This document shows, piece after piece, positions 2,206-4,963 of a DNA stretch of 35,001 nt. The notes under the pieces are model-generated. The model saw nothing but the letters and a program-made list of their open reading frames with translations, was not told the origin of the DNA and did no database searches. The DNA comes from a virus. The DNA lies in the IMG/VR virus record IMGVR_UViG_3300033153_007799, positions 1 to 35,001 of that record; one strand, given 5' to 3'. Each line of letters opens with the position of its first letter. Positions within the stretch are counted from its first letter, which is position 1. The position numbers were made by a program, and so were the translations under genes.

Positions 2206-2330
2206 TGCTAACGTTTTGCATAATAGGCGGCATAAATTTAAAAGAAAGGAACCAAGTTAAATGACACAACAAAACAAAAATCTGAAAATTGAGGACGGCG
2301 GTAGCCGTCCGGTTGATGCGGTTGTTATAC
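2206..2330 (+). repeat. attC-like recombination site 1 (125 bp)
   Basis: Left end box TGCTAAC (2206-2212), 5-base spacer GTTTT, left arm GCAT-AATAGG-CGGC (2218-2231). The right arm is GCCG-T-CCGGTT-G-ATGC (2304-2319), then a 4-base spacer and the right box GTTATAC (2324-2330). T2308 and G2315 have no partner on the left arm and would be extrahelical, 6 paired bases apart. The middle of the stem has one mismatch. Site 4 (4325-4450) is close to a copy of it. The terminal loop holds the Shine-Dalgarno (AAAGGA) and ATG of the next gene, and the right arm is coding. Confidence 0.65.
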
Positions 2331-2584
2331 CGCCATTTGAAGACTTGAAATTGTGTGAAAAATTTGGGGGATGGGCAAGAGTGCAGGTGGCTTTTTATGA
2401 TTATTTGTTTGTACAAGCCCAAGAAATGTGTATGAGTTGTTGGCGAGAAATAGCGATGAAAGACATAATGGGCGGTTTTAAAGATGGGGAGAATTTTTAT
2501 GAAAAATCAATTAAGGCCATTGAGGGGAAGTGGAAGTCATTTTCCGATGCATGGAATGATTTTGTGAAAGATATGGCGGTATAA
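2261..2584 (+). CDS. Cassette protein A; N-terminus encoded by attC-like site 1
   Basis: 107 residues from ATG 2261, with AAAGGA upstream. Residues 1-23 (MTQQNKNLKIEDGGSRPVDA and on to VVI) are almost identical to the start of the gene at 4381, but the remainders are unrelated. The shared DNA is exactly the attC-like site, so this gene is a fusion of a site-encoded leader with a cassette-encoded body (from about residue 23: PPFEDLKLCEKFGGWARVQV...). The body is helical with three Cys, several Trp and many acidic residues. I do not recognise it. It ends in TATAAC, which forms the left box of attC-like site 2. Internal starts downstream of the site are poor, so translation probably does begin inside the site. 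Confidence 0.6.
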   Translation: MTQQNKNLKIEDGGSRPVDAVVIPPFEDLKLCEKFGGWARVQVAFYDYLFVQAQEMCMSCWREIAMKDIMGGFKDGENFYEKSIKAIEGKWKSFSDAWNDFVKDMAV

Positions 2585-2676
2585 CGGCGAGTTATCAGTG
2601 GACAAAAACGCCACTGATGTGGAAGAAGAACAAACAACCGTCCGCGTTTTTGTTCCACTGCATAACATTGTTGGGC
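2579..2676 (+). repeat. attC-like recombination site 2 (98 bp)
   Basis: Left box GTATAAC (2579-2585, containing the TAA of cassette gene A), spacer GGCGA, left arm 2591-2611 (GTTAT, CAGTGG, ACAAAAACGC). The right arm is 2644-2666 (GCGTTTTTGT, T, CCACTG, C, ATAAC), then a 3-base spacer and right box GTTGGGC (2670-2676, matching the core GTTRRRY). The arms pair over 21 bases with only two unpaired bases, both on the right arm and 6 bases apart. This is the clearest of the four sites. The apical loop (about 32 bases) has no ORF. Confidence 0.75.
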
Positions 2677-2691
2677 GGCGTGGAGGATATG

Positions 2692-2862
2692 ATGGAATAT
2701 TTGATTATTGAATATGCCAAAAATACTGTTAACCAACGTCCCATAATTGAAAACAAAATGATAATGAATGAAAAACAATTATGGGAATATCTGCAACATC
2801 AACGCGAATCTGATAAAAAATTTACTGTTAATAAAATTGAGTGTGTCTTGGACTGGAGTTAA
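2692..2862 (+). CDS. Cassette ORF, 56 aa hypothetical
   Basis: ATG 2692 with GGAGG at 2682-2686 (5-base spacing). ATG 2689 is also in frame but too close. The product begins MEYLIIEYAKNTVNQRPI, has a helical acidic/basic middle (NEKQLWEYLQHQRESDKK) and ends VNKIECVLDWS. Not recognised. It sits alone between attC-like sites 2 and 3. The right box of site 2 is GTTGGGC and the left box of site 3, just after the stop, is GCCCAAC. This is the normal arrangement of a single-gene integron cassette: a short 5' leader, one ORF, then attC. Predicted cassette limits are 2671-2976. Confidence 0.6.
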   Translation: MEYLIIEYAKNTVNQRPIIENKMIMNEKQLWEYLQHQRESDKKFTVNKIECVLDWS

Positions 2863-2865
2863 GCC

Positions 2866-2982
2866 GCCCAACGATTGTTTCAACGGCGAAACCGTGCAGG
2901 AGAATCCGCGTGAAGATTGAGAGATACATAACCGTTGTACGGGAGTATCATGGTTTCGTCCAGTTGCTAACAGTGGTTAATC
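2866..2982 (+). repeat. attC-like recombination site 3 (117 bp)
   Basis: Left box GCCCAAC (2866-2872), 5-base spacer GATTG, left arm TTT-CAAC-GG-CGAAACC (2878-2893). The right arm is GGTTTCG-T-CC-A-GTTG-C-TAA (2952-2970), then a 5-base spacer CAGTG and right box GTTAATC (2976-2982). T2959 and C2967 are extrahelical with six paired bases between them, plus one extra bulged A (2962). The right box departs from GTTRRRY at one position. The loop of about 58 bases shows no convincing ORF. Confidence 0.65.
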
Positions 2983-3364
2983 GCCCGGTGCGCCCCATTT
3001 TTGGTGGTGTGGTGCGGATACGGGGACACCCTGCATACGCCTAAGACCTGTTGTTTTGCTTGCGCTACTGATACATTCGATTTAACTGATTTAATCATAA
3101 GTGGGGTGGGTCCTTTGACCTACATTAAGTTGTTTTTAATTATAGTGCCGACAGGAACAATCCTGACTACTTTCAGATCCAAATTGGTAGTTTTGAGTCA
3201 GATCACCGGATGTGATAGCATCCGAGTCGGGGACGGACAGTCAAAAGTTTCTTCAATATTTGACTTCTCCTCTTTTAAAGCGGGCAGCATCGCCCGCACT
3301 TTTGGGGTCGAAGGGTTCACCCTGCAAAATTATATTTAATTCAAAGAACGAGAGGATATAAATC
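2983..3364 (+). ncRNA. No convincing gene; candidate structured RNA in 3150-3304
   Basis: A weak frame (3001-3339, TTG start, no Shine-Dalgarno, no recognisable domain) is the only ORF on the + strand here. Between 3150 and 3304 there are four successive short hairpins: CAGG/CCTG (3152-3165), ACTAC/GTAGT (3166-3191), CGGATG/CATCCG (3207-3224) and GCGGGC/GCCCGC (3280-3297). The last is followed by ACTTTT, like a terminator. This would fit an ORF-less cassette encoding a small RNA. No clear promoter was found. The next gene's GAGAGGA site lies at 3350-3356. Confidence 0.3.
3280..3303 (+). terminator. Possible intrinsic terminator
   Basis: A perfect 6-bp GC stem GCGGGC/GCCCGC (3280-3285 with 3292-3297) has a 6-base loop, followed by AC and four T. 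The U-tract is short and offset, so termination may be partial. Confidence 0.45.
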
Positions 3365-3529
3365 ATGAGTATTGATCATAGAGTTATCGCATTGGAACAG
3401 GCAATAAGAAGCTACCCTTCCAACGTGGCAGATACGGAAGCAATCGTAATAAGAGCTAAAGAATTCACTCGGTTTTTGATGGATCTTTCGGAACGCGAGT
3501 TGCCCAAAGACACTCACGATAAAGAGTAA
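3365..3529 (+). CDS. Small hypothetical protein, 54 aa
   Basis: ATG 3365 is preceded by GAGAGGA at 3350-3356. The product MSIDHRVIALEQAIRSYPSN continues as a helix-rich, charged protein (IVIRAKEFTRFLMDLSERELPKD) and ends HDKE with TAA at 3527-3529. It has the look of a short phage helical protein, but I do not recognise the family. Its 3' end overlaps the 3' end of a gene on the opposite strand (3465-3641) by 65 bases, so the two are convergent. Confidence 0.5.
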   Translation: MSIDHRVIALEQAIRSYPSNVADTEAIVIRAKEFTRFLMDLSERELPKDTHDKE

Positions 3530-3641
3530 GAATGTAATTTCTGTTTCTCTTGGTAGTCTTTTCAGGGCCATCGGCAATTGCTTTCATTAGATCGAATGCG
3601 ACACGTTCTTTGCAGTCAAATTGCAGTTCTGTTTTTTCCAT
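3465..3641 (-). CDS. Minus-strand small protein, 58 aa
   Basis: This is the only minus-strand frame in the window that I think may be real. On the reverse strand the ATG at 3641-3639 follows AAAGGGAGTTGAA, a good Shine-Dalgarno at 5-base spacing. The product starts MEKTELQFDCKERVAFDLM and continues with a helix, a basic stretch (EKTTKRNRNYILTLY) and 'RECLWATR'. The 'KERVAFDLM...RNYILTLYRECLWAT' pattern resembles small phage and plasmid helical proteins, but I cannot name the family. A longer start at 3698 lacks a ribosome site. Reverse-oriented genes also occur in integron cassette arrays. Overlaps 3365-3529 tail to tail. Confidence 0.45.
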   Translation of the reverse strand: MEKTELQFDCKERVAFDLMKAIADGPEKTTKRNRNYILTLYRECLWATRVPKDPSKTE

Positions 3642-3680
3642 TTCAACTCCCTTTACCCCAGTGTGGAGGTGGGGCCGCTT

Positions 3681-3749
3681 ATGATTAAAGACATTCATAT
3701 TTACCCCTGCTTCAAAGCAAGGGCGATTAACGATTGGTTTAACAGGTAA
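3681..3749 (+). CDS. Possible 22-aa peptide
   Basis: ATG 3681 follows GGAGGTGGGG at 3665-3674. It encodes MIKDIHIYPCFKARAINDWF followed by NR, with TAA at 3747-3749. The same GGAGGTGG ribosome site precedes the next small gene at 3765. It may be a leader peptide or the remnant of a larger gene. Support is only the ribosome site. Confidence 0.25.
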   Translation: MIKDIHIYPCFKARAINDWFNR

Positions 3750-3764
3750 AATGGAGGTGGTACA

Positions 3765-3908
3765 ATGGTACTAATGTATTTGATAATATTGTTATTGGCA
3801 ATTGTTACGGTATTGTTACAACACAAACTTGACAAAGTGTGGTATTTTCTGAAACACGATCAAACAGATTTGGGGAAATCGTTCAGGAAATATATAGGTT
3901 TGAAATAG
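3765..3908 (+). CDS. Small single-pass membrane protein, 47 aa
   Basis: ATG 3765 with GGAGGTGG at 3753-3760. Residues 2-19 (VLMYLIILLLAIVTVLLQ) form one membrane segment, and the rest is a short basic tail (HKLDKVWYFLKHDQTDLGKS...). It ends TAG 3906-3908. The stop lies in the left arm of a hairpin (3897-3942). Too short for a family call. Plausibly a membrane accessory peptide like those at 1875-2203. Confidence 0.5.
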   Translation: MVLMYLIILLLAIVTVLLQHKLDKVWYFLKHDQTDLGKSFRKYIGLK

Positions 3909-3942
3909 TAGGGTGTAGATGGGATTTTATCCTGTTCAAACC
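3897..3942 (+). other. Hairpin at the 3' end of the 47-aa gene
   Basis: GGTTTGAA (3897-3904) pairs perfectly with TTCAAACC (3935-3942), and a smaller GGAT/ATCC pair lies in the loop. It is followed within 4 bases by GTTATGC (3946-3952). That heptamer is the exact reverse complement of the left box of attC-like site 4 (GCATAAC, 4325-4331) and could be the remnant right end of a decayed attC-like site. No matching left box was found. Confidence 0.4.
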
Positions 3943-3960
3943 GTGGTTATGCTTAGTGAG

Positions 3961-3979
3961 CACTGGCCACAAGCCAGTG
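3961..3979 (+). terminator. Hairpin, weak terminator candidate
   Basis: CACTGGC (3961-3967) and GCCAGTG (3973-3979) form a perfect 7-bp stem with a 5-base loop CACAA, followed by only three T. It lies between the 47-aa membrane gene and the gene at 4027. Termination would be inefficient; an mRNA-processing or RNA-stability role is equally possible. Confidence 0.35.
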
Positions 3980-4026
3980 TTTGCGAACGGCCAGCCCTTT
4001 AACCTTTAACCAAAAGGGGAGTTAAA

Positions 4027-4305
4027 ATGGATTGTACAATCTGGAAATTTGGTTTTGACATCGCAGATGAGTTTGCAATTGAAATGCCTGGTGGTGCGGA
4101 AATATTAGATGTACAGGAGCAGCATGGGCTTGCATGCATTTGGGCATTAATCGACCCTGAAGCAAGTAAAAAATGTAGATACTTTAGACTTGTTGGCACG
4201 GGACATCCGTTTGATTATGATGCAAGGATTTATAAATACATGGGAACCTTTCAAATGCATGGTGGCAACTTAGTATTTCATCTATTCGAAAATATAATGA
4301 AATGA
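4027..4305 (+). CDS. DUF7352-like phage protein
   Basis: 92 residues from ATG 4027, with AAAGGGGAG at 4012-4020. The sequence pattern is a familiar small phage/plasmid family (I recall it as DUF7352): an N-terminal 'IWKF-F-I-DEFAIEMPGGAEIL', 'VQEQ-GL-CIWALIDPEA', a basic stretch then 'RLVGTGHPFD', and the C-terminal 'YMGTFQMHGGNLVFHLFE'. It is full length for that family. It is a compact beta-rich protein of unknown function. It lies in the cassette region just before attC-like site 4, with GTTATGC (3946-3952) upstream, so it may be a cassette gene. The family match is from memory of the consensus. Confidence 0.65.
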   Translation: MDCTIWKFGFDIADEFAIEMPGGAEILDVQEQHGLACIWALIDPEASKKCRYFRLVGTGHPFDYDARIYKYMGTFQMHGGNLVFHLFENIMK

Positions 4306-4324
4306 CCTATACCCTTGCTGGCAA

Positions 4325-4450
4325 GCATAACGTTTTGCATAACCGGCGGCGTGTAATTTGAGAACAGGAGAAAATTTAAAATGACACAGCACAACAAAAA
4401 TCTGAAAACTGAGGACGGCGGTAGCCGTCCGGTTGATGCGTTGGTTATAC
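4325..4450 (+). repeat. attC-like recombination site 4 (126 bp)
   Basis: Left box GCATAAC (4325-4331), 5-base spacer GTTTT, left arm GCAT-AACCGG-CGGC (4337-4350). The right arm is GCCG-T-CCGGTT-G-ATGC (4424-4439), then spacer GTTG and right box GTTATAC (4444-4450). All 14 stem bases pair, and only T4428 and G4435 are extrahelical, 6 pairs apart. A nested hairpin GGACGGC-GGTA-GCCGTCC (4413-4430) competes with it. It is about 85% like site 1 by eye. The Shine-Dalgarno (AGGAG) and ATG 4381 of the next gene lie in its loop. Confidence 0.72.
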
Positions 4451-4653
4451 AGCAAGAGGGGCGGGGATATTTAGTGAAAGTAAAAACTACAAGTTGTTTA
4501 AGATCAACATTTCGAGTAGAAGACGATGATCATTATTACGATTGTGAAGATGCTATGATTTATGTAGTTACAGATGACCCTAAAAAAATATATGATATTT
4601 GGAGAGAATCTGTTATTGAAATTAAAGATATTGGGGTTGGGTTTGCTGTATAA
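4381..4653 (+). CDS. Cassette protein B; N-terminus encoded by attC-like site 4
   Basis: 90 residues from ATG 4381, with AGGAG at 4366-4370. Residues 1-23 (MTQHNKNLKTEDGGSRPVDA and on to LVI) match cassette protein A apart from a few changes. The rest is unrelated: a beta-rich, acidic body (VKVKTTSCLRSTF, DDDHYYDCEDAMIYVVTDD) ending IKDIGVGFAV. Not recognised. An in-frame GTG at about 4474 with GGCGGGG upstream could start a shorter 60-residue form containing only the cassette body. The stop again sits in GTATAAC, the same heptamer as the left box of site 2. Here no right half follows; only a short GGTTTA/TAAACC hairpin (4656-4681) is present. Confidence 0.55.
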   Translation: MTQHNKNLKTEDGGSRPVDALVIQQEGRGYLVKVKTTSCLRSTFRVEDDDHYYDCEDAMIYVVTDDPKKIYDIWRESVIEIKDIGVGFAV

Positions 4654-4715
4654 CATGGTTTATCCGAAATTGGGCCTAAACCAAATAAAAATAAGATGTA
4701 AAAAATAGGAAGGTA

Positions 4716-4732
4716 CGTACAATGTCTGTACG
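4716..4732 (+). promoter_or_regulatory. Inverted repeat over the RHH gene start
   Basis: CGTAC (4716-4720) and GTACG (4728-4732) flank the ATG at 4722. The repeat lies just downstream of the AGGAAGG ribosome site at 4707-4713. It could be an operator for autorepression by the RHH protein, whose family binds short palindromes, or an mRNA hairpin hiding the start. The 5-bp stem is short. Confidence 0.3.
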
Positions 4733-4963
4733 AAAAATACGAAAGAATTTTAGACTTCGTTTTGATTTGGTACAAAAGCTGGAATTGCAATCAAGGCAAA
4801 CCGGTTTTAAAAAACACGAATCGTTGAGGATGCATTGATTGAGTATTTCCAAAAATATAAAGTCCGAATTGAAACGCCTAAGATGCAATTTAATGGTGAT
4901 ATATCTGAGATGGAACTCGTCCCAGATTACAACAGTAAAGAGTGGATGGAGATAGCTCGATGA
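4722..4963 (+). pseudogene. Ribbon-helix-helix (CopG/Arc-like) protein, frameshifted in an A run
   Basis: ATG 4722 follows AGGAAGG. Frame 1 reads MSVRKIRKNFRLRFDLVQKL and on to GFKKHESLRMH, stopping at 4836-4838. The -1 frame from 4814 reads on to TGA 4961-4963 as (T)RIVEDALIEYFQKYKVRIE and onward. Joined, they give the classical RHH fold: a basic beta strand (NFRLRF), helix 1, a turn 'TGFKKTR', then helix 2 'IVEDALIEYF'. One A added to the six-A run at 4809-4814 restores it. The cause may be a real 1-base deletion, a homopolymer read error, or slippage on the A run (programmed or transcriptional). The intact product would be about 80 residues. Its end overlaps the RusA start (ATGA). Confidence 0.65.

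Follow-up and report, generated by a model that had tools for sequence, protein, structure and literature searches.

The 35,001-base linear virus record analysed here in its entirety, referred to below as the window, raises the question of whether a phage genome can hold integron cassettes and, if so, how they were joined there. A preliminary description, made from the letters alone, had placed four attC-like sites between positions 2206 and 4450. The record carries tailed-phage genes (TerL, Mu-type portal, protease, major head protein, tape measure, RusA and Erf), and the sites lie amid small phage genes, upstream of the RusA-family gene and the terminase. We conclude that the region from 2206 to about 4690 is very probably a CALIN in a tailed-phage genome, with six attC sites, one of them truncated, and five cassettes, which an integron integrase, most likely that of a host, would have joined in trans.

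attC Sites in the Window

Five sites on the plus strand, A, B, C, X and D, have an R'' box ending in AAC and an R' box starting with GTT around an imperfect L''/L' palindrome. All four sites described previously are present with their boxes where they had been placed; that list overlooked a complete attC at 3725–3952 (X) and the left half of another at 4648 (E).

The arm geometry described earlier is exact in attC B (2579–2676; R'' GTATAAC, R' GTTGGGC at 2670–2676; extra bases T2654 and C2661) and in attC D (4325–4450; R'' GCATAAC, R' GTTATAC at 4444–4450), where the arm TGCAT-AACCGG-CGGC faces GCCG-T4428-CCGGTT-G4435-ATGCG. The added site X is 228 nt long (R'' GATTAAC at 3725–3731, R' GTTATGC at 3946–3952), with L'' GGTTT-AACAGG-TAAAAT and L' ATTTTA-T3930-CCTGTT-C3937-AAACC, and its loop encloses a 47-aa ORF (3765–3908). 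In all three, 5 bp (in X, the arms as listed) are followed by an extra base, 6 bp and a second extra base, both extrahelical on the L' arm of the top strand. The B/D geometry, with 25 matches, is also the most frequent one among the high-scoring matches of the loci scanned, nearly all of them intI-adjacent, and the core arms of D are those of an intI-adjacent attC (L006, 4162–4221).

The same geometry was claimed too broadly for the other two sites. attC A (2206–2330; R'' TGCTAAC at 2206–2212, R' GTTATAC at 2324–2330) has the two extra bases of B and D, with one mismatch within the six-bp arm segment, while attC C (2866–2982; R'' GCCCAAC, R' GTTAATC at 2976–2982) leaves three bases of the right arm unpaired, the third being A2962, and has outer mismatches and an irregular stem. 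Of attC E the left part was found (4648–4690; R'' GTATAAC at 4648–4654), with no convincing right half or R' box within the 900 nt searched. A repeat of 75 nt, 92% identical between sites A and D, runs from R'' TAAC to R' GTTATAC.

Folding of the bottom strands, proposed as a check, gave z = −3.7 for B; the minimum free energy folds of D and A are not attC-shaped (z = −1.5 and −0.8, respectively) because of a competing hairpin. This is the perfect hairpin GGACGGC-GGTA-GCCGTCC, present in A (2290–2315) and D (4410–4435), which overlaps the L' arm; it could be a folding switch or could merely weaken the site.

Upstream of the array, the gene at 1312–1845 ends with GATATAAC, followed by GTTGGTTAACCGG. 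The stretch at 1839–1865 looks like one more left attC half, followed directly by a Shine–Dalgarno (SD) sequence and ATG. No right half was found for it, and cmsearch gave 9.5–11.5 bits, matching outer boxes only.

Covariance Models and Shuffled Sequence

The structural scan, which looks on both strands for R'' and R' boxes, spacers, arms and lone additional bases in the right arm, ranked B first (27.8) and D second (21.85) over the whole window. B scores above anything in 200 dinucleotide-shuffled versions of the window (maximum 23.3), and D, with a trained score of 49.9, above all of 300 shuffles (maximum 30.2), which bears out the expectation that comparable bulged stems would be rare in shuffled sequence. 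The stem of X scored 16.15, and none of 600 shuffles reached 15.9. For C, the support consists of its structure (18.45) and the matching ends of both flanking cassettes; it is structurally weaker than the other sites.

For training, 299 genomes of one phylum were searched for integron integrases (TIGR02249); 58 carried them, and the DNA around these intI genes was taken. The structural scan yielded 126 sites scoring at least 20 in the collected stretches versus 3 in shuffled DNA, with three viral stretches within the set accounting for 2 of the 126. A first model, R1, was built from 51 attCs of 20 bacterial loci in an ungapped alignment with strong covariation and with the loops cut out. It proved inadequate for long sites: in the window it detected B at 17.4 bits and no other site under default filters, and nothing once the filters were off. 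The second model, R2, comprises 138 attCs from 30 bacterial stretches around intI, collected via R1, and retains the natural loops, which mended the failure on long sites.

On the 35-kb window, the sole R2 matches up to E = 10 were D (41.8 bits, E = 5e-9), B (33.2 bits, E = 1e-6) and A (28.7 bits, E = 1.5e-5), the E-values being rough, with a shortened calibration, and R2 being a model made here and distinct from that of IntegronFinder. The covariance search suggested earlier thus gave matches at three of the four positions and none, up to E = 10, at attC C. The boundaries of X were reproduced by a covariance search at 7.5 bits only. Applied to the CALIN of Tetrasphaera phage TJE1, R2 found two sites at 35.8 and 33.0 bits, so the sites in the window score in the same range; the known CALIN of Polaribacter phage P12002L was missed, which indicates that the sensitivity of R2 is limited. 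A scan of the window with Rfam at the gathering threshold returned nothing.

Complementary Ends of Consecutive Cassettes

In a circular cassette, R'' and R' are partners, and integration at G|TT puts them at opposite ends of the cassette. Cassette 1 (2325–2670, from G|TT to G|TT, ending with attC B) has a left end, GTTATACCGCCAT, that complements its right end, ATGGCGGTATAAC, over 13 bp. The next three are cassette 2 (2671–2976, ending with attC C; 10-bp end match), with an ORF at 2689–2862 (57 aa) preceded by GGAGG before its ATG; cassette 3 (2977–3946, ending with attC X; 11 bp), with a 54-aa ORF at 3365–3529; and cassette 4 (3947–4444, ending with attC D; 9 bp), with a DUF7352 ORF at 4027–4305. 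Cassette 5 starts after attC D and matches the R'' region of attC E over 12 bp. All five are oriented as the phage genes, on the plus strand.

Complementary ends with the junction at G|TT, which define an integron gene cassette, were therefore found in five of five, with exact reverse-complement matches of 13, 10, 11, 9 and 12 bp for consecutive cassettes as opposed to 4, 3, 3, 4 and 5 bp within sites. The same relation holds in 46 cassettes of intI-linked arrays, where a cassette's own ends average 8.5 bp versus 4.8 bp within one site, and in TJE1 (8 and 8 bp versus 4 and 5). Random GTT/AAC pairs in the window reach 10 bp at a frequency of 1.4e-4 and 13 bp at 7.5e-6. Of all GTT...AAC matches spanning no more than 3 kb in the window, the four longest are end matches of these cassettes, the one of 10 bp being tied with an unrelated pair; two of the end pairs (A to B and B to C) had been set beforehand by the earlier coordinates.

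The end matches also located sites. The unlisted attC X was reached by following the match from 2976; its arms proved to carry the two extra bases with six pairs between them, and the end of the following cassette, at D, matches its R'. The left part of the sixth attC, at 4648, emerged from the match that begins at 4444. A cassette-start partner (GTTAGCAA) for R'' of attC A, which would mark a cassette 0, was not found upstream. Decay of the array at both edges is suggested by the truncation of E and by the lack of a partner for the left end of A.

End complementarity is the strongest evidence for the array. The results suggest that this inexpensive test can verify cassettes that attC models capture poorly and can find attCs longer than usual.

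Translation Starts inside attC Sites

The loops of A and D hold an SD sequence and a start codon (AAAGGA and ATG 2261 in A; AGGAGA and ATG 4381 in D), the ATG lying within the shared 75 nt. From these starts run a 107-aa ORF (2261–2584), without a family at E = 0.001, and a 90-aa ORF (4381–4653), both on the plus strand and in frame through R', whose GTT is read as a codon; the stop is the TAA of the next R'', that of B in the first case. The first 23 residues (MTQxNKNLKxEDGGSRPVDAxVI) are common to both, with leaders that are near-identical but not fully so, and the cassette bodies behind the leaders are unrelated.

Readthrough past R' from an SD and ATG occurs in two of the five attCs here, in 4 of 36 in six other phage contigs and in 0 of 138 intI-linked attCs. 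The difference between phage and intI-linked sites gives a Fisher p = 1e-4, or 0.0016 without the window, for events that are not fully independent, as some of the phages are related. The four sites in other phages belong to contigs G009, G010 and G014; three keep the same frame, and the fourth, in G014, uses another.

With a start codon in the loop and the frame open through R', cassettes landing at such a site would receive an attC-encoded N-terminus. On this reading of the frames, which we put forward tentatively and with more doubt than conviction, some phage attCs may double as translation-start modules supplying a ribosome-binding site, a start and about 8–23 codons, with in-frame cassette ORFs gaining a constant leader. 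If true, such sites would affect what protein a captured gene yields, in addition to moving the gene. The closest known cases are ORF-11 of attI1 and the short ORFs within attC, where the downstream cassette likewise takes its translation signals from a recombination site (reviewed in PMC8876359); those act by termination–reinitiation, whereas here the frame is open through R' and a fusion of leader peptide and cassette protein is predicted.

Cassette Arrays in Other Phages

Close relatives of the phage were not found: a BLASTN search of phages with the array gave none, and searches of IMG/VR yielded none by terminase, portal or DUF7352, only one of 33% identity by RusA, and no copy of the exact A/D sequence. 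A DUF7352 relative on a Shewanella plasmid has no significant attC around it. The core-arm pattern of D was found in bacterial contigs, one of them that beside intI (L006), and in six IMG/VR contigs without IntI.

Contigs G009, G012 and G014 have backbones that are mostly more than 90% identical, and at two loci they hold wholly different attC arrays between conserved flanks; this comparison shows that cassette arrays turn over in other phages.

Three related phages (L100–L113; IMG/VR 3300031841_003411, 3300046449_000213 and 3300045789_000414) carry entirely unlike arrays between identical flanks at two conserved loci, with the left flank kept through R'' (...AATACATGAAATAAC) and the right flank from the last attC core, so that the arrays differ in their first attC but retain the last one. 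A cassette block of about 0.4 kb, both ends of which lie at R'' TAAC, sets the related phages G010 and G011 apart (L101, 9000–9320; L105, 9420–10160). Since breakpoints in other phages fall at R'' as well as at R', the canonical reaction at R' only is not established for them. We make no claim that phage cassette units recombine at R'' instead of R', a further relative (L119) having an R' boundary.

A Salinisphaera contig (NZ_JAGHQW010000055.1; L003/L015) that is also an IMG/VR viral record has several attC-like sites, and the genome to which it belongs holds intI on another contig.

Class and Origin of the Array

Neither IntI (TIGR02249) anywhere nor a tyrosine recombinase (PF00589), even at E up to 10, was found in the 35,001-base linear record, whereas control genomes gave matches. 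The earlier statement that the genome has no tyrosine recombinase is accordingly kept for this record, which may be incomplete. A complete integron has intI and attI, and the record holds no IntI; within these 35 kb there are at least two clustered attCs without an integron integrase, and the array is therefore classed as a CALIN in a tailed phage. The three covariance matches, the rarity of such stems in shuffles and the cassette ends matching across the G/TT points uphold the CALIN-type array proposed at the outset, with the source of the integrase inferred.

CALINs have been described in the virulent phages Tetrasphaera phage TJE1, Polaribacter P12002L and Pseudoalteromonas PH101 (Qi et al. 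2023, PMC9892861), and the attC sites of TJE1 recombine with attI1 through IntI1 experimentally (PMC9892861). The present array shares with them attCs without IntI in a phage genome and the same stem geometry, as well as the orientation seen in TJE1. It differs from them (PMC9892861) in its five complete attCs and one truncated attC, in two attCs with in-frame starts and one 228-nt attC with an ORF in the loop, and in its cassette ORFs, among which, in those searched here, no methyltransferase was recognised and one is DUF7352. The CALINs of bacterial chromosomes and plasmids (IntegronFinder 2.0, PMC9024848) likewise have at least two clustered attCs, no intI and matching cassette ends, whereas the array here sits in a phage genome. 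The phage CALIN is real and of a kind known since 2023; its uncommon details are the in-frame starts inside attC and the long attC with its loop ORF.

According to the model that we favour, each cassette would once have been circular, with R'' paired with R', until an integron integrase supplied in trans, most likely by the host during infection, joined it to the G|TT of an attC. The location of the array amid small phage genes, upstream of the RusA-family gene and terminase, suggests that phage and cassette genes probably share transcripts, and cassettes landing at A or D would presumably be translated with the attC-encoded N-terminus.

A variant of this model, with the same identity of the array and another present activity, is a fossil: a fragment of a bacterial integron gained by illegitimate or homologous recombination, immobile now, with matching ends that date back to its stay in the bacterial integron. 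We consider it quite possible, at somewhat below an even chance. It accords with the truncated look of both edges, where R'' of A has no cassette-start partner and E no R', with the stem mismatch in A, and with the illegitimate recombination proposed for some phage CALINs (Qi et al. 2023, PMC9892861), but the arms of B, D and X are perfect with both extra bases, the ends are intact in five cassettes, and related phages elsewhere carry unlike arrays between conserved flanks. It is very unlikely that A and D are instead a duplicated gene start, from small paralogous phage genes whose N-terminus is conserved, and not recombination sites: their 75-nt repeat does include the ATG and encodes the near-identical 23 residues, but it is bounded by R'' TAAC and R' GTTATAC, both copies are covariance matches, and the same core arms occur in the attC beside intI (L006). 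Chance or generic hairpins such as terminators can practically be dismissed, for although shuffles contain about five moderate bulged stems per window at a structural score of at least 16, their maxima lie below the observed scores, Infernal E-values go down to 5e-9, and ends match in five adjacent cassettes.

The CALIN in this tailed phage is a well-supported addition to the few reported phage cassette arrays, and phages bearing attCs can ferry cassettes between bacterial integrons. As to the host, 641 genomes from two phyla searched with the major head protein gave only matches of 31–32%. Directly 3' of the array, a small ORF at 4722–4963 (MSVRKIRKNFRLRFDLVQKLELQSRQTGFKKHES...) seems to be frameshifted, with an apparent continuation in another frame; the frameshift could be a sequencing error.
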